Below the pieces are notes generated by a model that worked only from the letters and a program-made list of their open reading frames with translations, did no database searches and had not been told where the DNA came from. A stretch of DNA of 64,000 nt from Thermoanaerobaculia bacterium (lineage in GTDB: Bacteria > Acidobacteriota > Thermoanaerobaculia > Multivoradales > J023). Below are positions 21,028 to 39,780 of the stretch, piece after piece. Position numbers and translations under genes: made by a program. Position 1 is the stretch's first letter; each line of letters begins with the position of its first letter. Location of the stretch: positions 186,001 through 250,000 of the forward strand of contig JAUIJL010000001.1 of the NCBI GenBank assembly GCA_030431255.1, read 5' to 3'.

Positions 21028-21035
21028 CGGCGGAG

Positions 21036-22664
21036 CTAAGGGTCCGCCAAGGCTTGGATCTCCGGCGCGCTCAAGGCCCGGCCGTACACCCGGACCTCGT
21101 CGATCGCGCCGAAGAACGAGCTCTCATGGCCTTTGAAGCTGCGTCCCACCCACATCGGGCCCTCGGTGCCCAGGGAGACCTTCTTGCCGATCCATCGACT
21201 GCCGTCTAGGCGACCGTCGACGTAAATTCTGAGCTGGTCGCCGTCATAGACCCCGGCGAGGTGATGCCAGCGCCCCGTCTGCAATACGGTGTCGCCGCGG
21301 ACGGTCCATTGGTCGACCCGCAGGAACGCGCGGTCGTCACGGGTGAGGTAGAGGTCCCAACCGTCTTCCTCGTGATCCCTTTTGTCGACGATCGATTGCC
21401 AGCCGTTGCGCTCTCGATCTGGCCGAATCCAGGCACTGACCGTGAAGCGGAAGAGCTGATCGAGCTCGGGGTGCTCGCCCACGGATCGCAAACCGGCGGT
21501 GCCGCCGGGAAAGCCCAGGGCGCGGTGGATTCGCCCTGGGATCGAGGTGGGGCCGCCCGTGGCAGGCCTGGTCTGCCAGGCGGGTCCCCGGGCCGGTCGG
21601 CTCGAGGCGTCGGCGGTCTCCAGCGGCCAATGGACGAGCAACCCTCGATCCAGATCCACCGTCGCTCCTCGAGCGGGAGGCGGTGAGCCGTCCCCTAGCT
21701 TCAGACCGTAGACGCCGGCGAAGTAGTCTCGGATCCGGCGACGCAAGGGGCCGTCGAGCTCGTTCTGATAGATCGCCAGCGCCGCAACGTCCCCATACAT
21801 CGCTCGGCCCCGGCTGACGGAAAGCAGGAAGCGGAAGAACATATTGCCGGCCAGCACGGGCTCACCGGCCGTGGCGTCCCAGCCGTCGATGTAGACGCGG
21901 ATTTTGCTGTGGATGTCGCGATGGACCTCGATCAGATGCCATTGGTCGAGGGTGACCGCTTCTTGGGCGGTGATCACGGTCGGGCGTCGGAAGTCGATCC
22001 GCAGCTTGAGGGCATTGCTCTTGACCAAATGGGTGAGCTCCGTGCCGGCGAAGCCGAAATACACGAAGTCGGAGCCTTGGGTCACTGGACGGGCGAGCAA
22101 GAAAAGGGAGAAATCGTCGTGAATCGGGCCGACCTCTTGTTTCGGCTCGATCTCCAAGGAGCGTTCCTGCACCGAGCCCCGGCCGCCGCGGATGCAAGGA
22201 TGGCCGTTCAGGCATTCGAGCACGATCCCGGGTTTATCTCGGTCGTCCTGCCCGAAATCGCGACCGGAGAGGTGCTCAGGGGGCTCGAATCCCCGCGCGG
22301 GTCGATAGGAGCTTTGGTCGACCCAGCGCCTCAAACAGCCGTCGGGAAAGACCTCGGTGTCGCAATATTGGCGATCCAGGGGAGCGTTCTCGCCGGCGTC
22401 GAAACAGTCGAGGCTGGAACAGGTCGCCACCTGAAGCCCGTGGGTGGATTCGACCAAAAACGCCAGACCGTCGATTTCGCGGGGATGAAAAGCTAAAGAT
22501 GCCTCGGGGGGCGGATCGACGCCCGTGTCTGTGATCCCTTGCGGTCCCGTCAGGGCGTGGATCGGAGGGAAAAGGAGGGCCCCGGAGACCAGGGTAAACA
22601 GCCCAATGACGGTCAAGGCACCAAAACCTCTGGCGCGGGTAAATGCCCACCGATTATCACACAT
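21036..22664 (-). CDS. Secreted LamG/concanavalin-like domain protein
   Basis: A 542-residue protein with an N-terminal signal segment (about residues 12-36: GFGALTVIGLFTLVSGALLF). Two jelly-roll lectin-like domains follow. The first lies at about 140-335 (FVYFGFAGTELTHLVKSN, IEVHRDIHSKIRVYIDGWD). The second, at about 360-540, is a clear LamG (HWPLETADAS, FTVSAWIRPD, GRWHHLAGVYDGDQLRIYVDG, FFGAIDEVRVYGRALSAPEI; core block VYDGDQLRIYVDGRLDGS). LamG domains bind glycans or surfaces in extracellular proteins. The 5' end faces the divergent desaturase gene, with about 100 bases between the likely starts. Confidence 0.85.
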   Translation of the reverse strand: MCDNRWAFTRARGFGALTVIGLFTLVSGALLFPPIHALTGPQGITDTGVDPPPEASLAFHPREIDGLAFLVESTHGLQVATCSSLDCFDAGENAPLDRQYCDTEVFPDGCLRRWVDQSSYRPARGFEPPEHLSGRDFGQDDRDKPGIVLECLNGHPCIRGGRGSVQERSLEIEPKQEVGPIHDDFSLFLLARPVTQGSDFVYFGFAGTELTHLVKSNALKLRIDFRRPTVITAQEAVTLDQWHLIEVHRDIHSKIRVYIDGWDATAGEPVLAGNMFFRFLLSVSRGRAMYGDVAALAIYQNELDGPLRRRIRDYFAGVYGLKLGDGSPPPARGATVDLDRGLLVHWPLETADASSRPARGPAWQTRPATGGPTSIPGRIHRALGFPGGTAGLRSVGEHPELDQLFRFTVSAWIRPDRERNGWQSIVDKRDHEEDGWDLYLTRDDRAFLRVDQWTVRGDTVLQTGRWHHLAGVYDGDQLRIYVDGRLDGSRWIGKKVSLGTEGPMWVGRSFKGHESSFFGAIDEVRVYGRALSAPEIQALADP

Positions 22665-22765
22665 GGGCCTATTCTAACCGCTTTGACTGGTCAGATGGCT
22701 TGGGGTATGTTGCTGTTTGGAAGTGCCATCGTCTTGTGTCAACACCCGAGGAAAGGCGTCGAGGA

Positions 22766-23842
22766 GTGGGACAAGCAGCAGCGAATGAAGGGGCCCAAAG
22801 CGCGACGGTATCGAATCTTTCTTGGCAGTCGCGCTTGGCGCCATATAGCCGTCCCGACCACCGCAGAGCTTGGATCCAGCTGCTGAACACGGCCGTGCCC
22901 TTCGCCCTGGGTGTTTATGGGATGCTCCTGAGCCTCGAGGTCGGCTATATTTGGACCCTTTTACTGGCATTGCCCGTGGCGGGTTTGTACATTCGGCTCT
23001 TCCTCATCCAGCACGATTGTGGTCACGGCTGTTTTTTCAGCTCCCGACGCGCCAACGACCTGCTCGGCTCGTGGATCAGCGTCGTCTCCCTCACTCCCTA
23101 CTACTACTGGCTTCGGACCCACGCCTATCACCACTCCGCCCACGGTGATTTGGACCGCCGCGGCCTGGGGGATCTCACGACGTTGACCGTCGACGAATAC
23201 CTCGCCCTCGGGTTCTGGCAGCGGGTCGGCTATCGGCTCACCCGCAACATTCCGGTCCTGTTGGTGTTTGGGCCGATCTACCAAATCTTGCTCAAGCATC
23301 GTTTCCCCTGGGACCTGCCCCTGACCTGGAAACGGGAATGGCGCAGCGTATGGTGGACCAATCTCGGGCTGGGGCTCGGGGTCTGGGCTGCTGTGGAGGT
23401 GGTCGGTTGGATTGCCTTCCTCAAGGTGGCCGCGCCGATTTTCTGCTTCGCTTGGGGAGCGGCTATGTGGGTGCTCTACGTACAGCACCATTTCGAGGAT
23501 AATTATTGGGTCGAGCATCCGGAGTGGAGCTTCGAGCAGGCGGCGCTGGAAGGAAGCTCGTTCTACGATCTTCCTCGAATCCTTCATTGGTTTACCGCCG
23601 ACATCGGCTACCATCATATTCACCATCTGTTGCCGCGGATTCCGAACTATCGATTGAGGGAGTGCTTTGAGGCCTTCCCCGAGCTTCAGAACGTGAATCG
23701 CATCGGCCTCAGGGACAGCCTTCGCTGCGCGCGATTGAGTCTCTGGGATCCTGAGCGGGGACGGATGATCGGTTTTGATGAGCTAGCCTCCTCTAGGATC
23801 GGCAGCCCGGCGGCGGTGGAGCCGATCGGGGAACAGTCGTGA
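22766..23842 (+). CDS. Membrane fatty-acid desaturase
   Basis: About 358 residues; a di-iron integral membrane enzyme that introduces a double bond into acyl chains. All three histidine boxes are present: HDCGH, HAYHH and HHIHH. Hydrophobic pairs precede boxes 1 and 3 (about FALGVYGMLLSL, TLLLALPVAGLYIRLFLI and LGLGVWAAVEVVG). The start is uncertain. The homologous region begins near APYSRPDHRRAWIQLLNTAVPF, and no ATG is well placed. An ATG at 22643 would overlap the divergent gene. GTG 22766 is my best guess, with GAGG very close before it. It probably adjusts membrane fluidity, as in DesA/omega-6-like enzymes. No electron-donor gene is adjacent. Confidence 0.85.
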   Translation: MGQAAANEGAQSATVSNLSWQSRLAPYSRPDHRRAWIQLLNTAVPFALGVYGMLLSLEVGYIWTLLLALPVAGLYIRLFLIQHDCGHGCFFSSRRANDLLGSWISVVSLTPYYYWLRTHAYHHSAHGDLDRRGLGDLTTLTVDEYLALGFWQRVGYRLTRNIPVLLVFGPIYQILLKHRFPWDLPLTWKREWRSVWWTNLGLGLGVWAAVEVVGWIAFLKVAAPIFCFAWGAAMWVLYVQHHFEDNYWVEHPEWSFEQAALEGSSFYDLPRILHWFTADIGYHHIHHLLPRIPNYRLRECFEAFPELQNVNRIGLRDSLRCARLSLWDPERGRMIGFDELASSRIGSPAAVEPIGEQS

Positions 23843-23954
23843 TGGATCGTCGGCGTCTCTTGAGTCTCTAAAGCCCGGGAGCCTGAGAGCTCGGGCAGAC
23901 GGTGGAGCGAACGAGGCCGACGATCGTACACAGGAAGGCCTGTGATCGAGGATC

Positions 23955-26900
23955 ATGGTGGGTAAGAAGAGCACCGCGGTCGACAATGGGAACCTCGCCC
24001 TGGAGGCGTTCGTTCCCGGCTGGACCCTGCGCTATTTGGCGCGGCATCCGGCTACGGAGATCACCGCCGGCGCCGTTCCCCTGGACTGTGTCCTGATCCT
24101 GGTCGACATTTCCGGCTTCACCGCCTTGACCGAGCATCTGGCGACCCAAGGGGCCCGCGGAGCTGAAGAGGTGAGAGAGCTGCTCAACGGCTGCTTCTCA
24201 CCCCTCGTGGAGCTGATCACCGACCATGGCGGCTTGGTGGAGAAATTCGCCGGTGACGCCACGCTCGCCCTCTGGCCGGTCGAAGAGGAAGGTGAGATGG
24301 GCACGGCGGTGCGCCGAGCGGTTCAATGTTGCCGGGAAATCCAGCGGCAGCTCGACGATTTGGAAATCCGTGGATTTCGCTTGCGTCTACGGATCGGGGT
24401 GTCCGCCGGCGAGGCCTGCGCGACCACCACCGGCGGAGTGGAGGGGCGATGGGAAACCATGATCGCCGGCGAGGTCTTGTCGAGCCTGGACAGCGTGATG
24501 ACCCAAGCCGAGCCGGGTCAGGTCATCTTGTCGGCGGCGGCTACAGCCGCGGCCGGCAGCTGGCTCAACAGCCGAAGGCGCCCCGACGGCTCGTCGGAGC
24601 TGGTGGGTCTGAACGGAATCCTGGATCCGGTGGCGGCTATTTCGGCCACGCTGCCTGAAGAGGCTCGCCGAGCCTTGACTTGTTTCGTGCCCTTTTCCAT
24701 GCAATCCCGGCTGGAAGCGGGCCACACGGGTTGGCTCGCGGAATTCCGCCGGGTGACGATCCTCTTCGTCAATTTGGGCCATCTCCAGATCCACGAGGGC
24801 TCTCTCGATCAGCTCCAGACGACGATTCAAACCTTGCAGCGTTCCATCTACCGCTTCGGCGGTAGCTTGAATCAATTGGTCACCGACGACAAGGGAACCT
24901 GCCTGATCGCCGCTTGGGGGCTCGCTTTTCGCAACTATGACGACAACGCGGTCCGCGCCTTGCGCTCGGCCATGGACATGCGGTCGGAGCTCCAAAAGCA
25001 GGGGGTCGAGTCGGCGATCGGTGTCTCCACCGGCGTGATCTACACCGGTCTTCGAGGTAACTCCAGGCGCATGGAATACGCCATGATCGGTGATGCGGTC
25101 AATCTCGCCGCCCGCCTGATGCAATCCGCGTCGAGCGGCGAGATCCTATGCGATCGATACACGCGCACCGGCGCGGAGATGATCGATTTCGAGCCCCTGG
25201 AGCCGATCAAGGTCAAGGGCAAGACCAAGCCGATCCAAATTTTCCGCCCTCTCGGTCAGAAGAAAATGCGCATTCGGCGCCAAACCGAGATTCTCGGTCG
25301 CGAGCCGGAGCTGGCCATGTTCCGTGAGCTGCTGAGCCGACTCGAAAGGGGGCAAGGGGCGACCCTGGTGGTCGAAGGCGAAGCCGGAATCGGCAAATCC
25401 CACCTGGTGGACGATCTCGCCGAGCGGGCCCGTGGCATCGGAGCGAGGATCCTCGAGGCGAATGGGGACGCCATCGAGCGCGCGCGACCCCACTACCCGT
25501 GGAAGGAGATCTTCGAGCAGCTTTTAGACCTCGATGAGCTCGATGCGGAGACCGCCCGTGAGCGGCTGTTCGCGGCCTTGGAGCCCGAAGAGATAGACCT
25601 GGCTCCGCTGCTGATGCCGGTGTTGCCCTTCGATTTGCCGGAAACCGAGGTCACCGAAGGATTGGCGGCCAAAGGTCGAGCCGAGCGGCGCCAAGATCTG
25701 CTCGTCCGCCTGCTCGGCCGGGCGGTGGCCTCGCGCAAGACGGTGTTGGTCATGGACGACAGCCAGTGGCTCGACTCGGCTTCCTGGGCCCTTTTGGAGG
25801 CGGTGCATCAGCAGATCGAGGGCCTGCTGCTGGTGATCGTTACCCGCCCGTTGCTCGAGCGAGACCTGACCCTCGAAGCTCGACGGCTGTTGGAAGATCC
25901 CGGCACTGTGGTGCAACGGTTGGGGCCGTTGGATCAGGAAGCGGTGCTCGACCTGATCCGCTTGCGCCTCAAGACCGATCGTCTGCCGCGGACCCTGTCG
26001 GAAATGCTGCTGAGCAAGGCGGAGGGCCATCCGCTGTTCACCGAAGAGCTGGCGTTCAGCTTGCGCGACCAGGGCCTGATCACGGTCGAGGACGGGGTCT
26101 GCCGCCTTTCCGATCAAGTCGGCTCTTTCGGCTCCCTGAGCTTCCCGAATACGGCCCAGGACGTCGTCACCGGACGTATCGACATCCTCGACCCTCATCA
26201 GCAGCTGACGCTCAAGGTAGCCAGCGTGCTGGGACGTCGCTTCCTGCCCGCGATTCTGTCGGACGTACACCCCATTCCCGAAGAACGAGAGGATCTGCCG
26301 GCCCATCTCGCGGCCTTGTCCGAGCTGGAGCTGGTCCTGCCGGGCGCCGACGACGACTATATGTTCAAGCACTCCATCACCCAGGAGGCGGCTTACGAGC
26401 TTTTGCCCTTCGCCCAACGGCGGGAGCTGCACCGATCGGTGGCGGAATGGCACGAAGGGCACCGCAGTGAGGATTTGGACTCGGTATACGGCTTGTTGGC
26501 CCACCATTGGAGCCAGGCCGAGGTCACCGAAAAAGCGCTGATTTACTTGGAAAAGGCCGGCTTGCAGGCGGAGAGGGGGTATGCCTACCGAGAGGTCGCC
26601 CGCTTCTTCGCCAAGGCGCTGCAGATGGATCAGCAGCAAGGTGAGGATCCCGAGCTGGATCACCAGTGGGTCAGCTTGCCCGGCGGACGAACCCTCTCCG
26701 CTCGCCGAGCCCGTCGCGCCCGATGGCAGAGGCTCTTGGGGTTCGCCTACGCCAATCTCGGTCAGCTGGAGGAGGGAGCCCGGGAGCTCGGCCGGAGTCT
26801 GGAGCTTCTCGGAGAGCCGATTCCCAAGACCCGCGGAAAATTCATCCGTTCCGCCCTACGACAAGTGGCCCGGCAAGCCCGTCATCGTTTGCGCCCGACC

Positions 26901-28079
26901 CGGATCGAGCAAGCCTCCGGAGAGGCCGCCGAGTGTTTGTCGGAAGAAGCCAAGATCTATTCGCGGATCGGCGCCTACTACTATGTGTCGAACCACATCC
27001 TGGGATTCATCTACTCCATGTTGGCGGGGGTCAACGCGGCCGAGCACGCCCCCGCGTCCCACGAGCTCGCCGCTTCCTATGCGGATGTTTGCAACGTGGC
27101 CGGTCTGATTCCTCTGCACGCCTTGGCGAGGCTCTACGTGCGCCTGTCCTTCGAGGCGGCGGAGAAAGTCGGCAAGCCGGCGACCACCGCCCGGGTGCAA
27201 TCGCGCACCAGCATCTATATGGCGGCGGTGGCCGATTGGAGCTGTTTGGAGAATCTGGAGCGTTCGATCGTGTCGGCGGAGCGCTTGGGCGATCCCTATC
27301 AATGGGAAGAAAGCGTTTATTTGCTCGGTTTGGCCGAGTCCTATCGCGGCCAATTCGTGAGCGCTGAGGAGCGAGCACGGGAGGTGTCGGAGCGGGCACG
27401 GCGCAGCGGCAATCTGACCCACGAGGTCTGGGCGGCCGGTCTGACGGCGGACGCCTCGTTGCATCTCGGTGCCTTCGAGGAGGCGCACCACCATGCTTGT
27501 GAAGCGAGGCGATTGATCGGCAAATCCGACAGTCTCAATGGCGACACCCTGATCCGCAGCCACGGAGTCGACGCCGCCGCCTATGCCGGTCAAGGGGATA
27601 TGGAGAACGCCCTGAGCAGCGCGGAAGCCGTGTTGGCCGAGATCCTCAAAGGTGATCGGACTGCCCACGTGGCCAAGCAAGGTTATGTGGGTGCCAGTCA
27701 CGTCTTCCTCGATCTCTACGAGAGGGAGCCCGGCCGCATCGAGCTGCTGACGAAGGCTCGGACCCTGAGCAAGGCCTTCATTCAATTTGCCCGGCTCATT
27801 CCCGTGGCGTTGCCGGCCAGTTGGTTGGTGCGCGCCAGATTGGCCGCCGCGACCGGAAAGTCACCGGTGAAGGCGCTTCAAAAGAGCTTGCAGGAGGCTG
27901 AGAAACGGGGTCTCTACTACGATATCGCCACGGCTCACAGATATTTGGGGCTGGCGGCAGGTGTCGATTCCGCGCTGGGAAGAGGGCATCTCGAACAGGC
28001 GCGGGAGATCTTCGGCGGCCATCACATGGATTGGCAGCGGGATCGTTGCACGGACCTGCTGGGGGGAAAAGAGGCCTGA
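23955..28079 (+). CDS. Soluble-adenylyl-cyclase-like protein: two cyclase domains, AAA ATPase, TPR
   Basis: A 1374-residue cytoplasmic protein. Cyclase domain 1 (about 42-215) has both metal Asp, D51 (LVDISGFTALTE) and D101 (KFAGDATLALW). Cyclase domain 2 (about 265-430) has lost them (ILFVNLGHLQ) but keeps the Asn/Arg side of the active site in GDAVNLAARL. The two would form one composite catalytic site, as in mammalian ADCY10. An STAND/AAA domain follows: Walker A GEAGIGKS near 475 and Walker B TVLVMDDSQWLD near 600. Residues about 840-1374 are TPR-like helices. It is inferred to make cAMP under control of ATP binding and a TPR-sensed ligand. ATG 23955 has GAGG nearby. Confidence 0.92.
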   Translation: MVGKKSTAVDNGNLALEAFVPGWTLRYLARHPATEITAGAVPLDCVLILVDISGFTALTEHLATQGARGAEEVRELLNGCFSPLVELITDHGGLVEKFAGDATLALWPVEEEGEMGTAVRRAVQCCREIQRQLDDLEIRGFRLRLRIGVSAGEACATTTGGVEGRWETMIAGEVLSSLDSVMTQAEPGQVILSAAATAAAGSWLNSRRRPDGSSELVGLNGILDPVAAISATLPEEARRALTCFVPFSMQSRLEAGHTGWLAEFRRVTILFVNLGHLQIHEGSLDQLQTTIQTLQRSIYRFGGSLNQLVTDDKGTCLIAAWGLAFRNYDDNAVRALRSAMDMRSELQKQGVESAIGVSTGVIYTGLRGNSRRMEYAMIGDAVNLAARLMQSASSGEILCDRYTRTGAEMIDFEPLEPIKVKGKTKPIQIFRPLGQKKMRIRRQTEILGREPELAMFRELLSRLERGQGATLVVEGEAGIGKSHLVDDLAERARGIGARILEANGDAIERARPHYPWKEIFEQLLDLDELDAETARERLFAALEPEEIDLAPLLMPVLPFDLPETEVTEGLAAKGRAERRQDLLVRLLGRAVASRKTVLVMDDSQWLDSASWALLEAVHQQIEGLLLVIVTRPLLERDLTLEARRLLEDPGTVVQRLGPLDQEAVLDLIRLRLKTDRLPRTLSEMLLSKAEGHPLFTEELAFSLRDQGLITVEDGVCRLSDQVGSFGSLSFPNTAQDVVTGRIDILDPHQQLTLKVASVLGRRFLPAILSDVHPIPEEREDLPAHLAALSELELVLPGADDDYMFKHSITQEAAYELLPFAQRRELHRSVAEWHEGHRSEDLDSVYGLLAHHWSQAEVTEKALIYLEKAGLQAERGYAYREVARFFAKALQMDQQQGEDPELDHQWVSLPGGRTLSARRARRARWQRLLGFAYANLGQLEEGARELGRSLELLGEPIPKTRGKFIRSALRQVARQARHRLRPTRIEQASGEAAECLSEEAKIYSRIGAYYYVSNHILGFIYSMLAGVNAAEHAPASHELAASYADVCNVAGLIPLHALARLYVRLSFEAAEKVGKPATTARVQSRTSIYMAAVADWSCLENLERSIVSAERLGDPYQWEESVYLLGLAESYRGQFVSAEERAREVSERARRSGNLTHEVWAAGLTADASLHLGAFEEAHHHACEARRLIGKSDSLNGDTLIRSHGVDAAAYAGQGDMENALSSAEAVLAEILKGDRTAHVAKQGYVGASHVFLDLYEREPGRIELLTKARTLSKAFIQFARLIPVALPASWLVRARLAAATGKSPVKALQKSLQEAEKRGLYYDIATAHRYLGLAAGVDSALGRGHLEQAREIFGGHHMDWQRDRCTDLLGGKEA

Positions 28080-28171
28080 GCTGATAGGCTCTGCGCTTCT
28101 GAGGACGGCCCAACCGTCCATCTTTCTCGACCGTCACAGGGCGGTCCTCTGATCACGACCTTGAGGTTCGA

Positions 28172-29269
28172 ATGACATCCGGCCAGCCTCGATCACCCGC
28201 AGCGACCAATCCGACCCGTCTGGCAAATCAACCCCCCTGGATCTGGCAAATCATCGAATCTGCCGATCGATTCGTGCGTCTGCACTTCTGGGGATTTACC
28301 TTTTTTTTGGTGCTGCTCGGCGCAACTTCCGTGGTTCCCGATCTAACGGCTCGGCAGTTGGCTCTGGCCATGACCGTCGCGGTGCTTTTCCACAATTTCG
28401 CCTATGTCTTCAACGACGTGGTGGACTTACCGGTGGACCGCACTCAGCCTTCGCGTCGTCAGGACTACTTGGTCCGCGGGGTGATCAAGCCGTGGCAGGC
28501 CTTGCTCTTCTCCCTGGCTCAGATTCCGCTCGCGGTGGCCCTGAGCATCTTGGGCGGGGTGAGCCGGACGGGGATCGGAGTCCTGTTGGCGGGATTCGTC
28601 CTCATGGCCGTCTACGACCTCTGGGGCAAAAAATGCTTCTGTCCGCCCTTGACCGACCTCATTCAGGGACTGGGTTGGGGCTGTTTGGTCCTCTACGGTG
28701 CCTACGCGGTCGGCGGGCAGCCCAATCTGTTGACCTGGGTCGCTTTCTCGTCCGGTGCCGGGTTCATCTTCTTGATCAACGGCGTGCACGGCGGGCTGCG
28801 GGATCTGGAAAACGACCTTCAGCGTGGGAGCCGCACCACCGCAATCTTCTTCGGCTCGAGACCCCGAGGCGGTGTGGTCACCGTCCATAGCTCGCTGAAA
28901 TGGTTCGCGATGTCCATTCAATTGCTCTTGATCGCGACCATCGCCGTGCCATTGGCCCTGGGGACCTTCGACTACTCGCCCCGAGCCCAGGTCACCATGG
29001 TGGTGATCCAAATCCTCTTGCAGGCGATCAATCTGCGATTCATGGCAAAGGTCTTTCGCACCGACCAACCGTCCTGGGGAAGGGATTTCAGAATCCACCT
29101 CCTCCTGCTCTTGCTCGGCCCGGCGATCCTATTCTGGCCCTATATGTCCGGGCCCGTGGCCTGGATTTTCCCAATCGCCTTCCTCTGCCCATTCCTGCTG
29201 GTCGAGGTCACCGGTGAGGTGGTGGCGCGGGGGATCCATCGATGCCGCCGGGCCCTGCTGAGACCCTAG
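28172..29269 (+). CDS. UbiA-family prenyltransferase
   Basis: A 365-residue polytopic membrane protein with about eight or nine helices. The first Asp-rich motif, FNDVVDLPVDR (NDxxDxxxD), binds prenyl diphosphate through Mg2+. The second lies in GLRDLENDLQRGSRT. The family attaches isoprenoid chains to aromatic or other acceptors (quinones, haem O, chlorophyll, archaeol-type lipids). The sequence does not tell which, and no quinone or haem genes are adjacent. It lies 92 bases after the cyclase gene on the same strand and converges on lpxC with seven bases between. Confidence 0.85.
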   Translation: MTSGQPRSPAATNPTRLANQPPWIWQIIESADRFVRLHFWGFTFFLVLLGATSVVPDLTARQLALAMTVAVLFHNFAYVFNDVVDLPVDRTQPSRRQDYLVRGVIKPWQALLFSLAQIPLAVALSILGGVSRTGIGVLLAGFVLMAVYDLWGKKCFCPPLTDLIQGLGWGCLVLYGAYAVGGQPNLLTWVAFSSGAGFIFLINGVHGGLRDLENDLQRGSRTTAIFFGSRPRGGVVTVHSSLKWFAMSIQLLLIATIAVPLALGTFDYSPRAQVTMVVIQILLQAINLRFMAKVFRTDQPSWGRDFRIHLLLLLLGPAILFWPYMSGPVAWIFPIAFLCPFLLVEVTGEVVARGIHRCRRALLRP

Positions 29270-29276
29270 GAACGAC

Positions 29277-30575
29277 CTAAGCCGAGACCTCGACCGGGTT
29301 GAGGGCTTCGAGCTTCCGCAGGATGGCGATGTTGTCGCGATGACCGGTGAGCTTGGCCACGACTCTGCCGCGAATCGGGAAGCCGAGCATGTAGAGATCG
29401 CCGATGATGTCGAGGATTTTGTGGCGGGCGAATTCGTCCGGGAATCGAAGGTCGGTGTTGATGACGTTGTCTTCACCTACCAGGATGAAGTTGTCGAGGC
29501 GACCGCCGCCGCCGAGGCCGAGCTCGCTCATCATTTTTAGGTCACGCACGAAACCGAAGGTGCGCGCCGGGGCGATTTCAGCCTTGTAGGAATCGGGGCT
29601 GTCCAGCTCGTAATCGAAGAATTGATCACCGATCGGCGCCGGGTAGCTCAATTGGTAGGACACCCGGAAGCCGTCGTATGGCTCGATGGTCAGCTTCTTA
29701 TTGCCTTCGCCGACGGAATATTCGCGATCGATGACCAGCTCGCGACGGGCGATCCGTTGGCCTTCGAGGCCGGCCTCGTCGATGACCTTGCAGAATTCCA
29801 GGGACGAGCCGTCGAGCACCGGAATCTCACCGTGAACCTTGATCAGCAGGTTGGTGATGCCGTAGGCGTGCAGGGCGGAGAGCAAATGCTCGACGGTTTT
29901 GATTTGCTCCCCCTCCCGGGAGAGGGTGGTGGCGAAGTCGGTGTCGGCCACGGAGCGGATGTGGGCGGGCAGAATTTTTTCGCCTGGAAGGGTGAGGAAT
30001 TGGATGCCCGAATTCGGAGGCAAGGGCTGGAGGACCATGCCCGTCCGCCGACCGGAATGGAGGCCCAAGCCGTAGATCACCGTGGAGCGGCGAATGGTTT
30101 TCTGGTGTTTGCGGCCGTTTTTGACGATGCTGAGCATCGGTGGCGGCATGATTTCGTTTTCGATCTCCAAGCGATCGCGGCTCGACTCTGTGGGACCCTC
30201 TGTGCGCTTTTCTCGGTGTTGGAGGGCTCCTTCCACCGCTTCCATCACCCGGTTGTAGGACAGCGGCTTTTCCAGGTAGTCATAGGCGCCCATTTTGATC
30301 GCTTTGACCGCCGTCGAGACCGTGCCGTGGCCCGAGATCATGACCACGGGGGTGGACGAGTCGATTTCGCGCAAGGCGTCGAGCAGCTCGAGACCGTCTC
30401 GCCCGGGTAGCCAGATGTCGAGGAAGACGACGTCCGGCTTCTCGGTTTCGAACATTTTGAGGCCTTCGCCGCCGTCGGCCACGGAGAGGGTTTCGTATCC
30501 CTCGTCGTTCAACACATCTGAAACGCTGCCGCGTATTCCCGGCTCGTCGTCAATAATTAAAACCTTGGCGGGCAT
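29277..30575 (-). CDS. lpxC: Response-regulator receiver domain fused to LpxC deacetylase
   Basis: A 432-residue protein; start at ATG 30575 with AGGA upstream (the frame runs on to 30725 but loses homology). Residues 1-118 are a complete CheY-like receiver: acidic pocket D9/D10/E11, phospho-acceptor D53 (FLDIWLPGRDG), S81 and K103, closest to NtrX-type regulators. A polar linker (119-150) leads to a full LpxC domain (about 155-430), which removes acetate from UDP-3-O-acyl-GlcNAc, the committed step of lipid A synthesis. Catalytic and zinc residues are present: E229/H230 (TVEHLLSAL), H385 and D389 (HKILDIIGD), and H412 (TGHRDN). The fusion suggests direct phospho-control of lipid A output. 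No histidine kinase is adjacent. Confidence 0.93.
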   Translation of the reverse strand: MPAKVLIIDDEPGIRGSVSDVLNDEGYETLSVADGGEGLKMFETEKPDVVFLDIWLPGRDGLELLDALREIDSSTPVVMISGHGTVSTAVKAIKMGAYDYLEKPLSYNRVMEAVEGALQHREKRTEGPTESSRDRLEIENEIMPPPMLSIVKNGRKHQKTIRRSTVIYGLGLHSGRRTGMVLQPLPPNSGIQFLTLPGEKILPAHIRSVADTDFATTLSREGEQIKTVEHLLSALHAYGITNLLIKVHGEIPVLDGSSLEFCKVIDEAGLEGQRIARRELVIDREYSVGEGNKKLTIEPYDGFRVSYQLSYPAPIGDQFFDYELDSPDSYKAEIAPARTFGFVRDLKMMSELGLGGGGRLDNFILVGEDNVINTDLRFPDEFARHKILDIIGDLYMLGFPIRGRVVAKLTGHRDNIAILRKLEALNPVEVSA

Positions 30576-30817
30576 GCTGTCGATCCTGGTCTGGAGTGGT
30601 TCACGTGGGAGTAAGCCCGATCGGGGATCCGCAGCGGACGCCGGGCAGACGGTGAACGGCAATGATAGCGCAAAGCCCGAACCCGAGGCAGGCCGGCGCG
30701 GGTGCGGGTAGCTGGACGAATCCACACTGAAGAGGTTATCCTGAGATGCACCTCAGACGATTTTTGACGACACCCGGTCGATGAGGTGGCCGGGACCTTT
30801 CGCAGGAGCTCTTCGGC

Positions 30818-31444
30818 GTGCCAAACGCTACCCAAAGTCCCCTGAGCCTGGAGTCCTACCCCCGTACGATTTCATTCGGGGATCAGGAAGTTACATTCCG
30901 CCCGATGAATCGAGACGACCGCGAGGCGATCTTGGGATTCGCCCGCGCCCTGCCGGAAAACGACCTCCTTTTCCTGCGCACCGACATCACCCAATCCGAG
31001 GTGATCGACGTCTGGATTCGGGATATCGAGGCCGGCAATACGATCACGCTGGTGGCGGAAATGGAGGGGGAGATCGTCGGTTATTGCAGCTTGCACCACA
31101 GCGAGAGTCTGTGGACGCGGCATCTGGGCGAGATCCTGCTGCTGGTGGGAGATGACCACCGGGCTCGGGGCCTGGGCGGCCATCTGGCCAGGCAGATCCT
31201 GGAGCTGGCGAAGGGGCAAAGCTTGCACAAGCTGGTGGCCCAAATGATGAGCACCCAGCGCAATGCCCAAAACCTTTTCCATCACCTCGGCTTCATTCCC
31301 GAAGCCATGCTCCACGATTGGGTGATCGACCGCAACGGACGGACCCACAACCTGATCATGATGTCCCGCGAGGTGGATCTCGACGAGGAATTCTTCTCCG
31401 AGGAATCCGACGTGATCAGCTCACCGCTCGTCGTCGCGGACTGA
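30818..31444 (+). CDS. GNAT-family N-acetyltransferase
   Basis: A 208-residue cytoplasmic enzyme with a GTG start and GGAG at about 30805. The GNAT fold is clear: VTFRPMNRDDREAILGF is strand 1/helix 1, ITLVAEMEGEIVGYCSLH is strands 2-4, LLLVGDDHRARGLGGHLARQIL is motif A, with the acetyl-CoA-binding R-x-x-G-x-G/A loop (RARGLGGHL), and AQNLFHHLGFIPEAML is motif B. The acceptor could be a small amine or a protein; nothing in the sequence decides. It is divergent from the receiver-LpxC gene (242 bases apart) and converges on the AsmA-like gene. Confidence 0.88.
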   Translation: MPNATQSPLSLESYPRTISFGDQEVTFRPMNRDDREAILGFARALPENDLLFLRTDITQSEVIDVWIRDIEAGNTITLVAEMEGEIVGYCSLHHSESLWTRHLGEILLLVGDDHRARGLGGHLARQILELAKGQSLHKLVAQMMSTQRNAQNLFHHLGFIPEAMLHDWVIDRNGRTHNLIMMSREVDLDEEFFSEESDVISSPLVVAD

Positions 31445-31458
31445 GGCGACCCGAGCTC

Positions 31459-33513
31459 TTAGGGCGATCCGAGCTCTTTTTCCCAATAGGGTAGGCGTTT
31501 GCGGTAAAAGCGTTTCGCGCCGATCAGGTCAATTTTTCGTTGATCGGGCTCCGGGCCAAGCTCGACGGCCATGGAAAGCCGTCGCCATTTGACCAGCACC
31601 AAACCCATGTAGGCCTTATCCGCCAGCTTCAGCTCGGCAAAGGTTTCGAGATGTCTGCCGCCGAGCAGAATCAGCCGGCGTAGGAAAACGTGACGCTCGT
31701 CCACCTGGAGGTTCGAGGTCACGGTCAGCGGATGCATGGTGAGCATGTCCTCGATCCAATTGGGCATGGACTTGCGCTTCATGGCGATGGCGACCAGGGG
31801 CCGAGAGTCCGCGACAGTGGCGGTGATGTCCGCCGACACGCTCAGCGGGCGGCCGAAAGTGGCCTGCCCCTCGGGGACCTCCACCCGCGCCCACCATGCT
31901 TCCGCGGTCTCCGATCCCCGGACCCGGACATCGTCCAGGGATAGGGAGGCCCCGCTCAGTCGCACCCGCTGTCCGCTTCGGCTTTTGTCCAAGACGCCGG
32001 CGAACGAGGCCCTGAGGTCGACGTTGCCTTCAAGGCTGCCGTCCGCATAGGCCGCGTCTTTCACCTCACCGAGAATCCGCACCCGACCGTTTAGGCTGGG
32101 CGCTTTACCGGCGGCAATCTCGAAGCGGAGCTCAGCCTCGGCCTGCCCCTGACCGGATACCAGACGGATCGGCGATTGGGCCGGTAAGTAGGCGTCGTAG
32201 ACCGAGAAGTCCGGAATCCGCGACCGGGGGAGGGTGACCTTGGCTTTGGCTTGCGGGTCCGGCTCGACCAAATCCAGGGACGGGGACGAGGCCTCGAGCA
32301 ACAACCCTTGACCTTCGATATAGGGCTTCTCCCCCTTTTCGCCGACTTGAAAGTCCTTGAGCAGCAGCTCGAGGCGCGCCGCGTCATCCACGGTCATCGC
32401 CAGGCGGCCGGCTCCGGATCCGTGATAATTCAGATAGTCCAAACGGACATCGTCCCCCTCCAGCTCCAGGCGGCTGTCCGGCAGGAGCTTGCCCTTGTCG
32501 ATGGTGATGTGGGTGTCCAACCGACCCGAGCCGCCGACGGAAACGGGCAGATCCCGCAGCAGCAACGACGTGGCGTCGAGGCCGGTGTCGATGCCCCACG
32601 CCTCAGCTCCCACACGAACCTCGGCGGTGAGAAAGCGAAGCCACGCGACCCCCCGATGCTCTCGGGGCACGAACGGCTCCATCTTGCCCTGGATGTTGAA
32701 GATCTCCACGGAGCCTTGATCCTTGCCCTGAAGCTCGATTTGCCCCCCGGCCAGCTCGATTTCGAAATGGGGCAGCTCCACGGGTCCTCTGGGTTGGATC
32801 GAAAGGGCCAAGCTGCCGCTACCCGGCCGATCACCCGCCTGAAGTCGATTCTGATCGAGCCAGATCTCTCTCAAATCCTGGACGTCGATGTGCTCAAAAA
32901 CGAATCGCCAGCGAGGTCTCTGGGCTGAGGGTCTTTGGGCTGAGGTTCTTTGGGCTGAGGTTCTTTGGGCTGAGGTTCTTTGGGAAGAGGGCTCCGCGGT
33001 GGTGGCGGTGGCGGTCGAGGAACCCTGGTCGGCGTTGGAGGCCGGGGCGCCGGCAGGGTTTGAATCTGTGTCGGTGGGCGACGTCTTCGGGTGCGACGTC
33101 CACGTGAAGCGGCAGCCCGTGGCCGTGGAATCAGGGACCCGTAGCTCACGGTCGAAGAGAGCACGGGGATCGATCTTCAGCTCGGCTTGCTCGACGTCGA
33201 CTTGCCAGATGCCCCGTCGGGTCGTGCCCTTCATGCTCAGACCTTCGACCTGCACCAAGCCGAAGCGCCACATCGAGCCGTCGCTCCAATGCATTTCGAA
33301 TTTTTCGGGACGCCGATTGACCAGGGTCGGTCCCAGGGGGGTGTGGAAAAAGGCGAGCAGGAACGAAACATAGAGCAAGGCGAGCAGCGCCACCAGGCCG
33401 AGGGGGATCTTCCACCATCGCCCCTTGGCCTTGGCCCGCGGCTCCCCGTCGTCGGATTGCGCAGCGTCCCTGGATTCGATGTCGTCGGATTCGCGGTCCT
33501 TGAATTCGCTCAT
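31459..33513 (-). CDS. Single-pass AsmA-like envelope protein with SAQRT repeats
   Basis: A 684-residue protein. An acidic/polar cytoplasmic N-terminus (1-33) is followed by one helix (about 35-55: IPLGLVALLALLYVSFLLAFF). The remaining periplasmic part is almost entirely short beta-strands with a repeated pattern of hydrophobic alternation, resembling AsmA/TamB or BLTP-type lipid-transfer proteins (for example VDVEQAELKIDPRALFDREL, a typical AsmA opening). Residues about 178-198 are a low-complexity linker of five-residue units SAQRT/SAQRP encoded by a 15-base tandem repeat. The role is inferred only as envelope or lipid homeostasis. The C-terminus (MGLVLVKWRRLSMAVEL) has no obvious domain. 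Gene isolated between the GNAT and sigma-factor genes. Confidence 0.7.
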   Translation of the reverse strand: MSEFKDRESDDIESRDAAQSDDGEPRAKAKGRWWKIPLGLVALLALLYVSFLLAFFHTPLGPTLVNRRPEKFEMHWSDGSMWRFGLVQVEGLSMKGTTRRGIWQVDVEQAELKIDPRALFDRELRVPDSTATGCRFTWTSHPKTSPTDTDSNPAGAPASNADQGSSTATATTAEPSSQRTSAQRTSAQRTSAQRPSAQRPRWRFVFEHIDVQDLREIWLDQNRLQAGDRPGSGSLALSIQPRGPVELPHFEIELAGGQIELQGKDQGSVEIFNIQGKMEPFVPREHRGVAWLRFLTAEVRVGAEAWGIDTGLDATSLLLRDLPVSVGGSGRLDTHITIDKGKLLPDSRLELEGDDVRLDYLNYHGSGAGRLAMTVDDAARLELLLKDFQVGEKGEKPYIEGQGLLLEASSPSLDLVEPDPQAKAKVTLPRSRIPDFSVYDAYLPAQSPIRLVSGQGQAEAELRFEIAAGKAPSLNGRVRILGEVKDAAYADGSLEGNVDLRASFAGVLDKSRSGQRVRLSGASLSLDDVRVRGSETAEAWWARVEVPEGQATFGRPLSVSADITATVADSRPLVAIAMKRKSMPNWIEDMLTMHPLTVTSNLQVDERHVFLRRLILLGGRHLETFAELKLADKAYMGLVLVKWRRLSMAVELGPEPDQRKIDLIGAKRFYRKRLPYWEKELGSP
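32922..32981. repeat. Four tandem 15-base units inside the AsmA-like gene
   Basis: GGGCTGAGG(T/G)TCTTT occurs four times without gaps at 32922, 32937, 32952 and 32967. A 15-base unit keeps the reading frame and encodes the SAQRT linker, so copy number can change without breaking the gene. Confidence 0.9.
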
Positions 33514-33567
33514 GGTGTGGTCTTGACGTTAGCATGATCGCGGCCCAAGAAAAGTTTCACCAAAAAT

Positions 33568-34137
33568 GTGACCGAATCGGCGTCTGAGGTACTACACCAC
33601 CGTATGGACTTGAACGCTATCGTCTCGGAGCTGGCACCGCGCCTGTTGCGCTACTGCCTCGGTCGGTCGGGATCTCCCGAGCTGGCCGAGGACGTGGCTC
33701 AAGACGCTTTGTCGGTTCTGGTGCAACGGTGCCGGGCCGGGAATCCCCCGGACCACGCAGAGGCGTTCGTTTTCACCGTCGCCCGTCGACGATTGGCGAG
33801 ACGCCTATGGCAGTCCAGATGGCTGGAGCCTTTGGACGTCTTGCTCGGTCGTCAGAGCGGCGGGGCGGATCCGGAGCGATTCACGGCCGGCCGAGCGCAG
33901 CTGGGGTTGACCCTAAAGGGGTTGAGCCGGCTCAAACCCAAGCTGCGCGAAGCCCTGCTCCTGGTCGCCGTCGGTGATATGTCGACGGCCGATGCCGCCC
34001 GAGTCTTGGGGATCTCGAGCTCGGCGCTGAAGATGCGCGTTTCCAGAGCGCGACAACAGCTGCAAGTCCATTTGGCAGAGCACGATCCGTCCGTCGCGAC
34101 GGAAGAAATGGAGAGTTACGACCATGCGGCAACCTGA
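33568..34137 (+). CDS. ECF-type RNA polymerase sigma factor
   Basis: A 189-residue protein from GTG 33568; ATG 33604 (MDLNAIV) is an equally credible start and neither has a convincing ribosome site. Sigma region 2 spans about 14-80: LLRYCLGRSGSPELAEDVAQDALSVLVQRC (ELAEDVAQDAL matches the polymerase-core helix). Region 4 spans about 115-168: LKPKLREALLLVAVGDMSTADAARVLGISSSALKMRVSRARQQL, with the -35 helix-turn-helix in ADAARVLGISSSALKMRVSR. The gene overlaps the membrane-protein gene downstream by 14 bases and heads a four-gene cassette with STN-domain proteins, so it probably controls envelope-related genes in response to a periplasmic signal. Confidence 0.9.
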   Translation: MTESASEVLHHRMDLNAIVSELAPRLLRYCLGRSGSPELAEDVAQDALSVLVQRCRAGNPPDHAEAFVFTVARRRLARRLWQSRWLEPLDVLLGRQSGGADPERFTAGRAQLGLTLKGLSRLKPKLREALLLVAVGDMSTADAARVLGISSSALKMRVSRARQQLQVHLAEHDPSVATEEMESYDHAAT

Positions 34138-34687
34138 TCTCGACCCCCGGTCGAAACCCGCCGAAGGCCGACCGCCTCAACCCGCGCCGAACATCTCACC
34201 GGACCAGCAGCTCGACGATCGGCTGCGAGCCGATTTAGAGCCGTCCGAGGAGCTCGTGCGCCGGGTCACCCTGAGGGCCTTGAGCTCACGGGACCCTGAA
34301 ACTGCAAGGTCCGTATCGTGGGCTCCGGCATGGGTGTGGTCCTTTCTGCTGGTTTTGGGCTTCGCGGGGTGGTGGTGGCTGGGTCCGTACCCAGGGCCTA
34401 GCCCGGTGGGATCGACGGATCCGTCGATCGATTCCAGATCCGCCGAGATCTTGCTCCCGGATCGAGGCCGGTCCGCCGGCTCGTCCACGGGGCCGATCCT
34501 CCACTTGAGCAATAGAGACGGTTTCGTCACCGTCTCCAGTGCCCAAGGGAGCCGCTGGGTCATGCTGTCCAATGCCGTGCCGTCCCATGGAGCCGACGGT
34601 GGCGTCGGCCCGAACGTGAAACCCAACCAATTGGACCCATCCAACCCTTCGGGCGACGATCCGAAAGGGCGCAGGAGAGAAATATGA
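34124..34687 (+). CDS. Single-pass membrane protein, candidate anti-sigma factor
   Basis: A 187-residue protein. The cytoplasmic N-terminus (1-65) is Pro-rich, then has helices resembling an anti-sigma segment (DQQLDDRLRADLEPSEELVRRV). One transmembrane helix lies at about 67-86 (PAWVWSFLLVLGFAGWWWLG). A periplasmic tail of about 100 residues contains a short strand pair (ILHLSNRDGFVTVSSAQGSRWVML). It starts inside the end of the sigma gene and its stop overlaps the next ATG (ATGA at 34684-34687), so all three are translationally coupled. No named anti-sigma domain is recognisable; the assignment rests on topology and position. Confidence 0.55.
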   Translation: MRQPDLDPRSKPAEGRPPQPAPNISPDQQLDDRLRADLEPSEELVRRVTLRALSSRDPETARSVSWAPAWVWSFLLVLGFAGWWWLGPYPGPSPVGSTDPSIDSRSAEILLPDRGRSAGSSTGPILHLSNRDGFVTVSSAQGSRWVMLSNAVPSHGADGGVGPNVKPNQLDPSNPSGDDPKGRRREI

Positions 34688-35376
34688 GCCAGAATACCCC
34701 CACAATCCAAACCCTCGACCTCCAGACCTCAGTCCGATCCCGTCGGCCCGGCCTCAACCCAGTGGCGATTCGAGCGGCGATCCCTGGGGCGACCTGCTTT
34801 TTTGCAGCGCTCGTGCTCATGGCGGGCCTGTGGGCCGGATCCGCTTTTGCGGAAACCTCCGAAGCTGCCAAAGGCTACGAGAACACCTTGGACACGCCGT
34901 TGTCGATCGAGCTGGCCGAGGCGGACGTCGCCGAAACCTTCGCCAGCTTTGCCAAGGTGACGGGTCTTCAGCTTTCCATGCACCCGGCCGTCGAAGGCAA
35001 GGTGACCTACGCCGCCCAAGCGGAAAAATTGTCGGTCACCATCGACGGCATTTGTCGCCGGCTCAAGCTCGAGTGTTATCTGTTGGCGGGCGATCCGGCC
35101 ATCTTGCGGGTCCAGCCGCAAATCGGCTTCGCCGGCTTTCCGGACAACATCGACCTCGAGCTGGTGGAAGCGCCACTCGACCAAATCTTGGCTTCGTTCT
35201 CCGTCATTTCGGAGGGGCGGGTTCAAGTCAGCGGGAGCTTTGAGGGCCAGCTGAGCATGTCCTTGAAAGACCAGCCGTGGCCCGAGGTGCTCGAGCACAT
35301 TTGCGCCGGCCACGATTGCTCGGTGGATTGGAGCAGCGAGCCGGTGACCGTGACGTCCACCGGTCAAGGCCGCTAG
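34684..35376 (+). CDS. Periplasmic protein with two STN (secretin/TonB short N-terminal) modules
   Basis: A 230-residue protein with AGGAG before ATG 34684. A long n-region leads to a signal helix (about 38-56, ending AFAE). Module 1 (about 70-145) reads TPLSIELAEADVAETFASFA, then LQLSMHPAVEGKVTYAA, then a helix ending C124-x6-C131. Module 2 (about 155-225) reads NIDLELVEAPLDQILASFS, VQVSGSFEGQLSMSL and a helix with C207-x4-C212 followed by a V-D-W strand. STN modules in TonB transducers and secretins pass signals to FecR-type anti-sigma proteins or gate pores. Here there is no barrel in the same chain, so it is a free periplasmic partner, plausibly of the membrane protein encoded upstream. 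Confidence 0.8.
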   Translation: MSQNTPTIQTLDLQTSVRSRRPGLNPVAIRAAIPGATCFFAALVLMAGLWAGSAFAETSEAAKGYENTLDTPLSIELAEADVAETFASFAKVTGLQLSMHPAVEGKVTYAAQAEKLSVTIDGICRRLKLECYLLAGDPAILRVQPQIGFAGFPDNIDLELVEAPLDQILASFSVISEGRVQVSGSFEGQLSMSLKDQPWPEVLEHICAGHDCSVDWSSEPVTVTSTGQGR

Positions 35377-35396
35377 GATCCATCGGAGGAGTCGAT

Positions 35397-37241
35397 ATGA
35401 GCATGCCGGGCAAGGTGAGAATCGCAGGACGTTTCGGAAACACACCCGCAACCTATGGGTGTCTGGCCTGGGCGCTGCTGGCGTCTTGGGCCGGGTCCGC
35501 GGTCGCGCAAGTGGATTGGGATGCGGAGATCTCCATCGATTTGCAGCGGGCGTCTCTGCGTGAAACCTTGGCCGGCTTCGCCAAAATCGGCGGCGGCGAG
35601 CTGTGGATGGAGCCGTCGGTGCGAGGGGAGGTCACCCTCAAAACCGACGGCGCCACCACCTTCGAGATTCTCGATCAGATCTGCAAGCACCACGACTTGC
35701 AATGTTATTGGGGAGGGCGACCGGCTCGCCTGATGGTGGACGCATCGGAGGGCTTCAAGGGGCTTGCCACCAGCATCAGCCTGGCCCTGCGCCAAGCGGA
35801 TTTGCAGCAGACCGTGCAGGCGATGTCGACCATTACCGAAGGCCGGGTTCGGATCGAAGGTGAGCTCGAGGGTAAGGTCAGCGTGGAGATTTTGTCCGCG
35901 CCCTGGCCCGTGGCCCTGACCCACATTTGCCAGGACTCCGGCTGCGAGGTGGATTGGAGCGCCGAGCCGTATGTGGTTTCTCCACGGAAGCCGGCCGGAG
36001 ACCGAATCGATCACCGAGCCGATCAGGATGTCGATCGCGGAGTCGTCGACACGTCGGTGGCATCGTTGGTGGCATCGGCTCCCTCAGCCGCCTGGGGTCC
36101 ACTGCAGCTGGAGGTGGAAGGAGCTGAGCCGTCTATCTTGCGTGCGGAGCCGGGCTTGGATGCCGAGACCTGGGGTGAAGCCTTCAGCCGGCTGTGCGAA
36201 CGCCACGATTGCCGTTGGCAGCTGCGCTACGGCCCCCCTTCGACGTTATTGCTGACTTGGCTGGACCCGAAGGTGAAGACGAAGGTGAGGCTCGGATCCG
36301 AGACCCGTTGGGAGCAGCCCCGGCTTTGGTCCGCGAAGGAGCTTGCGGTCCGCTTGGCCCAAGAAGCAGACATGGAGCTGAAAGTCTCGGAAGCCATCGA
36401 GCTCCGGGGTGAGGTGAAGGTCCGGCAGCCTGAAATGAGCTGGATCGAGCTGGCGGATCAGCTCTGTGGCGCGGTGCGCTGCCGGTGGCGAGCGCAGGCA
36501 GCCGAGCTATGGCTGAGCCCCACCGAAGCTCCCCTCAGCTTGATGCCCACGGTCAGTGTTCCTGCGGTGGAGACCTTGCTCAAGGTGACCGGGTCCGGCG
36601 GCACGGGACTCGAGCGGACGGCGACCTTCGATTGGAAGCGTCCGGTCTATCGTCTATCTGTGGGTTCGACCTCCAAGTCGCCAGAGAAACAGAGCGCGGG
36701 TGCCCTGGTGGTCACCTGGTTGCCGTTCTCATCGGAGCTTCAGTGGGTCCTGCCTTTTTGGCTTCCCCATGGCGGGACGCCCGGCGCGTTGTCGTCCACA
36801 CGGGTGGGCTCGACCCGAACCGAGATCCCGGTGAGCCTCAACTTGGAGCTGGGGCAACATCCAGGTCGAGCCGAAAAGATCCCGGAATCGTCCGGCACTC
36901 GATTGTCGGTAGCCTTGGCGGAGCGCCAGAACGGCAATTGGGTGCGGGAAAGTCGATTCACCCTCGACGCCATGCCCGGTAGTTATTTGATGATCGCTCC
37001 GCCCGGGGCCTACGATGGTTCCGCCACCGCGGTGATTTTTCTGGGGAGTGATCCCACCGGGCGGGTTTGGGTCGCGTTGGCCGAGCCCACCGAGCCCACC
37101 GAGCCCACCGGAACGTCCCAAGCCGACCCGCTTCTCAGGGTCGAGCTGTTGACATTGGATCGGATCGAGACCCGCTCCTTGGTCTATGGTGATCGAGCCT
37201 ACCGCCTTTCGTTGATCCCCACAGATCCACCTCCGGGCTGA
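35397..37241 (+). CDS. Periplasmic protein with four Cys-paired STN-like modules
   Basis: A 614-residue protein. ATG 35397 has GGAGGA six bases upstream; the frame to 35277 overlaps the previous gene. A signal peptide ends near AVAQ. Four STN-like modules follow: about 40-115 (C96/C103), 122-195 (C178/C183), 235-290 (C267/C272, degenerate first half) and 297-375 (C357/C362). Each repeats the form strand, helix, strand pair, then D/T-x-I-C-x(4,6)-C plus aromatic strand. The C-terminal 240 residues are a beta-rich region with no recognised domain, and contain EPTEPTEPT as a linker. It is the last gene of the sigma cassette and is probably a ligand- or envelope-sensing partner. Confidence 0.8.
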   Translation: MSMPGKVRIAGRFGNTPATYGCLAWALLASWAGSAVAQVDWDAEISIDLQRASLRETLAGFAKIGGGELWMEPSVRGEVTLKTDGATTFEILDQICKHHDLQCYWGGRPARLMVDASEGFKGLATSISLALRQADLQQTVQAMSTITEGRVRIEGELEGKVSVEILSAPWPVALTHICQDSGCEVDWSAEPYVVSPRKPAGDRIDHRADQDVDRGVVDTSVASLVASAPSAAWGPLQLEVEGAEPSILRAEPGLDAETWGEAFSRLCERHDCRWQLRYGPPSTLLLTWLDPKVKTKVRLGSETRWEQPRLWSAKELAVRLAQEADMELKVSEAIELRGEVKVRQPEMSWIELADQLCGAVRCRWRAQAAELWLSPTEAPLSLMPTVSVPAVETLLKVTGSGGTGLERTATFDWKRPVYRLSVGSTSKSPEKQSAGALVVTWLPFSSELQWVLPFWLPHGGTPGALSSTRVGSTRTEIPVSLNLELGQHPGRAEKIPESSGTRLSVALAERQNGNWVRESRFTLDAMPGSYLMIAPPGAYDGSATAVIFLGSDPTGRVWVALAEPTEPTEPTGTSQADPLLRVELLTLDRIETRSLVYGDRAYRLSLIPTDPPPG

Positions 37242-37253
37242 GTCGTAGGCCGG

Positions 37254-37305
37254 CCGTCTTGCGCAGCCGTCTCGCGCAGCCGTCTTGGGCAGCCGTCTCG
37301 GCTCG
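37254..37305. repeat. 13-base tandem repeat, about four units
   Basis: CCGTCTTGCGCAG, CCGTCTCGCGCAG, CCGTCTTGGGCAG and a diverged CCGTCTCGGCTCG lie end to end just after the STN gene. It is intergenic, with no obvious secondary structure. Confidence 0.7.
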
Positions 37306-37510
37306 ATCTTGGATGGCCCGCGCGGTTGGGATAGAGTGAAGAGGATGCGTTGACATCTCAATGACCCGGCTCATCCCCATGGACGAGCCATTCCATTAGA
37401 TTTGCCACGACCAAAGGATCGGCGAGGCTTTCATCCGCCGGATGGGGCTCTCCGAATCGGATCGTGCGTCAGAAACCGGGGCCGGAAACCGGGGCTCAGA
37501 AAGACGAGCG

Positions 37511-37906: not shown

Positions 37907-37944
37907 TGGATGGCTCGAAGGTCTGAGATTCGGAGGGGTCGCCC

Positions 37945-38364: not shown

Positions 38365-38391
38365 TGCAGCAGCCGGCGAAGAGCAGCTGAA

Positions 38392-39573: not shown

Positions 39574-39647
39574 CCCGTCCAGGCCCTCGCCCGCTCCAAC
39601 GCACTGATGCTTCAAGGTCGCTGAACGACGGCTGCCGTCGTTACTTT

Positions 39648-39677: not shown

Positions 39678-39780
39678 CTCAGAAAATTTGCATTCCCATG
39701 AGGGACTATTCTTCTGAATTCCGCCTACACGTCGAATCCGGATACATTCCGGTATGACGTGAACCTCAGGAGATCCCGCC

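Follow-up and report, generated by a model that had tools for sequence, protein, structure and literature searches.

A receiver domain fused to LpxC in Acidobacteriota and a second phylum, and a candidate NtrY-like kinase partner

The window, by which we mean the whole stretch of 64,000 nucleotides analysed from a Thermoanaerobaculia bacterium, carries at 29277-30575 a single gene that joins a receiver domain to LpxC. The preliminary description of this DNA gave these coordinates correctly and named no strand; the gene lies on the minus strand, which alone is open here, the plus strand being interrupted by stops. Translation starts at an ATG at 30575 and the stop codon occupies 29277-29279. 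The gene, its parts and its flanks are as follows.

28172-29269, plus strand: flanking gene for a UbiA-type prenyltransferase
29277..30575, minus strand: whole gene, receiver-LpxC fusion of 432 residues (open frame, both domains above Pfam cut-offs, full-length relatives)
29301..30104, minus strand: LpxC deacetylase domain, residues 158-425, with E229, H230, H385, D389 and H412 (Pfam LpxC and TIGR00325 above cut-offs, alignment with solved LpxC, residues identical in 55/55)
30105..30212, minus strand: variable linker, residues 122-157 (mean column entropy 2.61 bits, computed for residues 121-156 in 49 fusions)
30213..30575, minus strand: NtrX-like receiver domain, residues 1-121, with D9, D10, D53, S81 and K103 (Pfam Response_reg, best solved relatives 4d6x and 5m7n, residues identical in 55/55)
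30818-31444, plus strand: flanking gene for a GNAT acetyltransferase

In the Pfam search, run on a protein with one extra leading residue (P0001), Response_reg covered 6-116 (E 2e-31) and LpxC 159-423 (E 1e-83). The scores were 108.8 bits for PF00072 (cut-off 30.2) and 281.4 bits for PF03331 (cut-off 27), and the NCBIfam model for lpxC, TIGR00325, gave 242.5 bits against a cut-off of 187.25. With both domains above the curated cut-offs and their key residues present in 55 of 55 distinct fusions, the intact receiver and full LpxC reported from the letters alone are borne out. Pfam found no other domain in the protein, which has neither a sigma-54 AAA+ nor a Fis-type DNA-binding domain. The fused protein is not an NtrX, as it lacks these two domains, both of which the separate NtrX of the related genome G013 has. 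An assembly artefact, or two genes misread as one, was rejected and can be taken as refuted, since an open frame of this kind is present in 49 distinct fusions and in further ones. An AlphaFold2 model of the fusion, made from a 15-row alignment, reached a mean pLDDT of 63.7 and a pTM of 0.51, with the receiver good and much of LpxC poor; docking of the receiver on LpxC was set aside for that reason and no contacts were taken from the model.

Within the window, neither gene next to the fusion codes for a kinase. When the window's open reading frames within 20000-40000 were compared with 40 loci, the acetyltransferase had a match in 5 of them, all from the window's family and two of these copies of one. 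Three other frames nearby deserve a mention. The protein of 38392-39573 (plus strand, about 8 kb away) matches near the fused gene in four loci (L228-L231) of a distant acidobacterial family, f41, and may be a chance neighbour. The frame at 23955-28079 (plus strand, 1374 residues) by eye seems to combine two stretches like cyclases with an ATPase and helical repeats, and the one at 31459-33513 (minus strand, 684 residues), upstream of the fused gene, has no Pfam match at E<=0.001.

The fused gene is the single PF03331 match in its genome (10.19 Mb in 54 contigs, with an estimated completeness of 98.8%). The profile search thus revealed no second LpxC, and the arrangement that the preliminary description had set against its own reading, a separate lpxC alongside a dead fused copy, is not what this genome holds. 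Ten positions of the LpxC half (H173, T212, E229, H230, T339, R384, H385, K386, D389 and H412) are identical in 55/55 distinct fusions, a set from which rows not spanning both domains were dropped (L042, L279 and others broken by contig ends). Among solved enzymes the closest are LpxC structures, with which the catalytic positions align, and the conserved residues presumably have the zinc-binding and catalytic roles that they have in LpxC. As no other LpxC was found in the genome, the fusion is likely to be an active deacetylase. Two other fusion genomes, G019 (L121) and G032 (G032:C613:10399-10905), have a second match of the separate type, 40% and 37% identical to the fusion, which contamination (5% and 4%) could explain.

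The receiver half is conserved to much the same degree. D9, D10, D53, S81 and K103 are identical in 55/55 distinct fusions from three lineages and two phyla, and mean column entropy over 49 fusions is 1.12 bits for the receiver, 1.02 for LpxC and 2.61 for the linker, so the receiver is conserved like the enzyme and the linker is not. The best NCBIfam receiver model is that of NtrX, at 129 bits, and 4d6x and 5m7n, which we take to be Brucella NtrX, are its closest solved relatives. In the receiver tree the fused receivers were placed neither inside nor beside NtrX, but a grouping with NtrX was not rejected (p-AU 0.45); in these topology tests one NtrC-type row, L250, was counted outside the fusion set, leaving 49 fusions.

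We then compared 23 receiver positions, in helix 1 and in the loops that follow the phosphoacceptor strand and the lysine, which, by analogy with kinase-receiver complexes, we assume to face the kinase. At these positions the identity of the 49 fused receivers is 57% with 19 NtrX encoded in lpxC-ntrY-ntrX clusters, 46% with three orphan NtrX of the window's family, and 34% with each of two further groups, 11 NtrX from alphaproteobacteria and 10 proteins of a second NtrC-type family. In the rest of the receiver the corresponding values are 41%, 37%, 40% and 42%. The contact excess of cluster NtrX over the second NtrC-type family had p 0.0001 against random position sets (0/111 circular shifts), that over alphaproteobacterial NtrX p 0.0006 (1/111) and that over orphan NtrX p 0.05 (5/111). 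By lineage, the excess over the second NtrC-type family had p 0.0001 in the main lineage, p 0.02 in f41 and a weak p 0.07 in the second phylum. This pattern is predicted alike by shared descent and by a kept kinase partner.

The closest named relative has 74% identity (Acidobacteriota) and others 62-64% (Thermoanaerobaculia). The preliminary description had suggested a check of whether the architecture is clade-wide, and it proves to be widespread. Among 59 genomes, the window's own and its relatives, the fusion is in one piece in 33 (with an internal stop in G019) and broken in three (G006, G039, G045); 18 have a separate LpxC only, four neither form (G010, G015, G052, G056), and G008 has, at the end of a contig, a piece of an LpxC of the separate type. 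In a wider sample of Acidobacteriota a full-length fusion was seen in 18/396 genomes, seven of them in f41. It also occurs in another phylum, in a metagenome-assembled genome (MAG) titled Bdellovibrionales (L071). There, in 45 genomes of one class that include G432, 34 have a full-length fusion, six have partial matches and four have none at the threshold, while G434 has a divergent full-length match (32%). In the loci L275-L282 of this phylum all phosphorylation residues are kept in the seven aligned fusions. Searches of plasmids gave no match to the fusion at E<=1e-60, and those of viral contigs gave no further LpxC rows.

An unrooted LpxC tree splits 49 fused rows from 38 separate rows with support 100/100, although its bootstrap had not fully settled, and puts L071 beside f41 (97/91). 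One old origin of the fusion would be the simplest reading of these sequences. The fused rows of two further families, f16 and f13, sit within the fused set while other members of both families have a separate LpxC, which suggests transfer.

A candidate partner for the receiver comes from genomes with a separate LpxC, where lpxC, often a DUF4390 gene, the gene for an NtrY-type membrane kinase and that for an NtrX-type regulator are clustered in this order. The name NtrX rests on the best NCBIfam model, whose 516 bits are under its cut-off of 600, and the name NtrY on domain layout and the Pfam model NtrY_N, which passes in G432 and G331 and has no hit in the window's genome. The latter genome encodes an NtrY-like kinase of 739 residues at positions 6264-8480 of contig C49, with HAMP, PAS, HisKA and HATPase domains all above cut-offs. 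All 31 kinases of the fusion set, which includes loci from four genomes without a fused gene found (G052, G010, G091, G190), have the phosphorylation motif HEIKNPLTPI unaltered; it is the same in 26 kinases of the split set, which includes the alphaproteobacterial row L094, save for Q in place of E in two.

The regulator is distributed very differently. Among the 59 genomes, a search for NtrX orthologues (E<1e-160 against the NtrX of G013) succeeded in 18/18 with a separate LpxC, one being G013 itself, against 3/36 with the fusion. NtrY at E<=1e-130 is present in 30 of these 36 fusion genomes, broken or partial in four (G029, G032, G033, G040) and not found in two (G037, G054). A receiver-profile run over the loci gave the same picture: a receiver gene adjoins ntrY in 10/11 genomes with a separate LpxC only, the exception being G027, where ntrX is on another contig, against 2/28 checkable fusion genomes, namely G406 and G306, the latter with a whole separate cluster. 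Checkable genomes had at least 2.1 kb 3' of ntrY. The 28 derive from 33 ntrY loci by removing L158 (G052), L165 (G010), L267 (G091) and L268 (G190), without a fused gene found, and L162 and L266, with less than 500 bases 3' of ntrY, and by adding G306 (L221). In the f41 loci L262 and L265 an NtrC-type regulator lies about 2 kb from ntrY, with two other open frames between them in L262. Incompleteness of the MAGs could explain single absences, but hardly the repeated pattern of ntrY without ntrX.

A DUF4390 gene precedes ntrY in 20/20 ntrY loci from this order's non-split genomes, two of which (G010, G052) had no fusion found, so the DUF4390 protein may belong to the sensor. Neither the fused gene nor any lpxC is present at ntrY in those 20 loci. 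In the window's genome the DUF4390 gene comes directly before the ntrY-like gene (L154:5601-8483, on C49).

An NtrX-like regulator whose gene has no ntrY next to it persists in the window's genome (G000) and in two others, G001 and G002. In G000 it is encoded at C15:679268-680644 (L217:8269-9645, minus strand) and has receiver, AAA+ and Fis-type domains. At contact positions 11, 14 and 55 the receivers of these orphans depart from NtrX; judged from three sequences, the changes may imply another partner.

The pattern of ntrY without ntrX beside it recurs in the other lineages. In f41, ntrY is present in 9/9 genomes and the fusion was seen in 7/9. NtrX at E<=1e-130 was found in 0/9, though at such distance E-values cannot exclude a diverged NtrX; better evidence is that none of the six checkable loci has a receiver gene adjoining ntrY. 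In the class outside this order NtrX was found in 19/20 genomes without a fusion found (all but G321). The fusion genomes G394 and G412 keep ntrY with no NtrX seen, and their relatives in f16 and f13 have NtrX. In the second phylum the kinase was found at E<=1e-60 in 37/45 genomes, including 28 of the 34 with a full-length fusion, and not found at that threshold in the other six. Compared by eye, no listed NtrC-type hit there lay less than 3 kb from the kinase, a result to be read knowing that short contigs can hide neighbours and that E-values cannot exclude a distant NtrX; in G432 itself there is no receiver within 4 kb of ntrY.

Several states coexist in f16: separate genes only (G345, G401), the fusion with a separate cluster (G306), the fusion with ntrYX (G406) and the fusion with ntrY (G394). 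All within one family, they look like steps of a swap from regulator to enzyme. G406 had no other LpxC at E<=1e-45, and its contig ends beside ntrY; its ntrX match has one flagged TGA, yet the frame is open for 442 residues. G306 has the fused lpxC (L220) and the lpxC-ntrY-ntrX cluster (L221) in one genome, the result of recent acquisition or of contamination (1% by the tool's figure).

How much lipid A a cell makes is set by LpxC, an antibiotic target whose described controls comprise proteolysis, accessory proteins and transcription. A review names these controls too, covers LpxC proteolysis in organisms other than E. coli and describes NtrYX as an inhibitor of lpxC transcription in both R. 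sphaeroides and C. crescentus (PMC12444477). In a study of R. sphaeroides, loss of NtrYX raised lpxC transcripts 8.8-fold and increased LPS content, and no NtrX binding site was detected upstream of lpxC (PMC7240162). The Desulfovibrio regulator DVU2934 has a single mapped target, lpxC (PMC3333781).

Our main reading, with a probability of about 0.6, is that the fused gene is this bacterium's LpxC with the receiver of an NtrY/NtrX-type system at its N-terminus, and that phosphate from the NtrY-like kinase reaches D53, letting an envelope signal act on LpxC. The receiver of an NtrY-type kinase would have moved from a transcription factor onto LpxC; the NtrY-like membrane kinase would pass phosphate to D53, and the signal would reach the enzyme itself rather than transcription. 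Phosphorylation would most likely alter LpxC activity through contacts between receiver and LpxC or between receivers, with altered stability or altered membrane recruitment as the next option. By analogy, a restraining effect on LpxC is weakly favoured, because NtrYX loss raises lpxC transcripts in Rhodobacter. The phosphorelay on LpxC imagined in the preliminary description appears better supported than its author could know, because there is now a named candidate, the NtrY-like kinase, and most of the fusion genomes examined lack the transcription-factor partner next to it. The sensor may, on this partner pattern, control outer-membrane synthesis directly. To the broader claim, that a two-component system was rewired in lineages of two phyla, with an NtrY-type kinase signalling straight to LpxC through an enzyme-borne receiver that replaces NtrX, we give roughly even odds. 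Against a simple swap count the orphan NtrX of G000, G001 and G002, the whole cluster of G306, the ntrYX of G406 and the fusion genomes in which ntrY was not found or is partial or broken.

The evidence from residues and partners would fit equally well a receiver that governs the amount or place of LpxC and not its catalysis, phosphorylation hiding the protein from a protease or exposing it, or tethering it to the membrane kinase. In E. coli, proteolysis governs LpxC, and nothing specific speaks against this alternative, although we think it unlikely. A receiver that serves as a structural or dimerisation module, with no phosphorylation, has the precedent that some receivers work unphosphorylated, but five phosphorylation residues identical in 55/55 fusions from two phyla make it very improbable.

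The choice of kinase is a separate matter. The phospho-switch on LpxC could be real and thrown by another kinase, the retained NtrY-like kinase serving another regulator. The fused gene and ntrY are not neighbours, which also counts against the kinase-partner reading as a whole; NtrY was not found in some fusion genomes, and the orphan NtrX-like regulator of the window's genome could still be the kinase's client. Yet the orphan differs at contact positions 11, 14 and 55, the contact positions of the fused receivers favour cluster NtrX, and most fusion genomes of three lineages keep ntrY without a neighbouring receiver gene. We regard a different kinase as distinctly unlikely, and NtrY remains our candidate for the phosphorylation of D53.

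The fused protein can be set beside several known systems. It resembles NtrY/NtrX in that its receiver is closest to NtrX, that most fusion genomes keep an NtrY-like kinase and that NtrYX affects lpxC transcripts elsewhere; it differs in having an enzyme as output in place of the sigma-54 AAA+ and DNA-binding domains. With LpxC (EnvA, UDP-3-O-acyl-GlcNAc deacetylase) it shares the whole domain, the catalytic residues and the status of sole copy, but ordinary LpxC is without the N-terminal receiver and linker. DVU2934 is likewise a two-component regulator dedicated to lpxC, although it acts at the lpxC promoter and not on the protein. CheB and PleD also have an N-terminal receiver on an enzyme; the outputs of such regulators are mostly signalling enzymes, whereas that of the fusion is a committed biosynthetic enzyme. 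As far as checked, the fusion is an enzyme-output response regulator whose output lacks a description in the literature. We found no earlier account of a receiver-LpxC protein in the mostly open-access, partly accessible literature searched, so mention elsewhere is possible, and the architecture may already be in domain databases. A link of such two-component systems to lpxC is known; the placement on the enzyme appears to be new.

If the main reading is right, a sensor kinase acting on LpxC itself would add a further mode of control of this enzyme, and a two-component output would have been swapped from regulator to enzyme, in groups that consist mostly of uncultured bacteria. Identity with the LpxC-FabZ bifunctional protein was rejected, as NF009667 gives 203.9 bits against a cut-off of 465 and Pfam detects no FabZ domain; the two proteins are alike in having LpxC in a gene fusion, but the partner there, FabZ, is a second enzyme.
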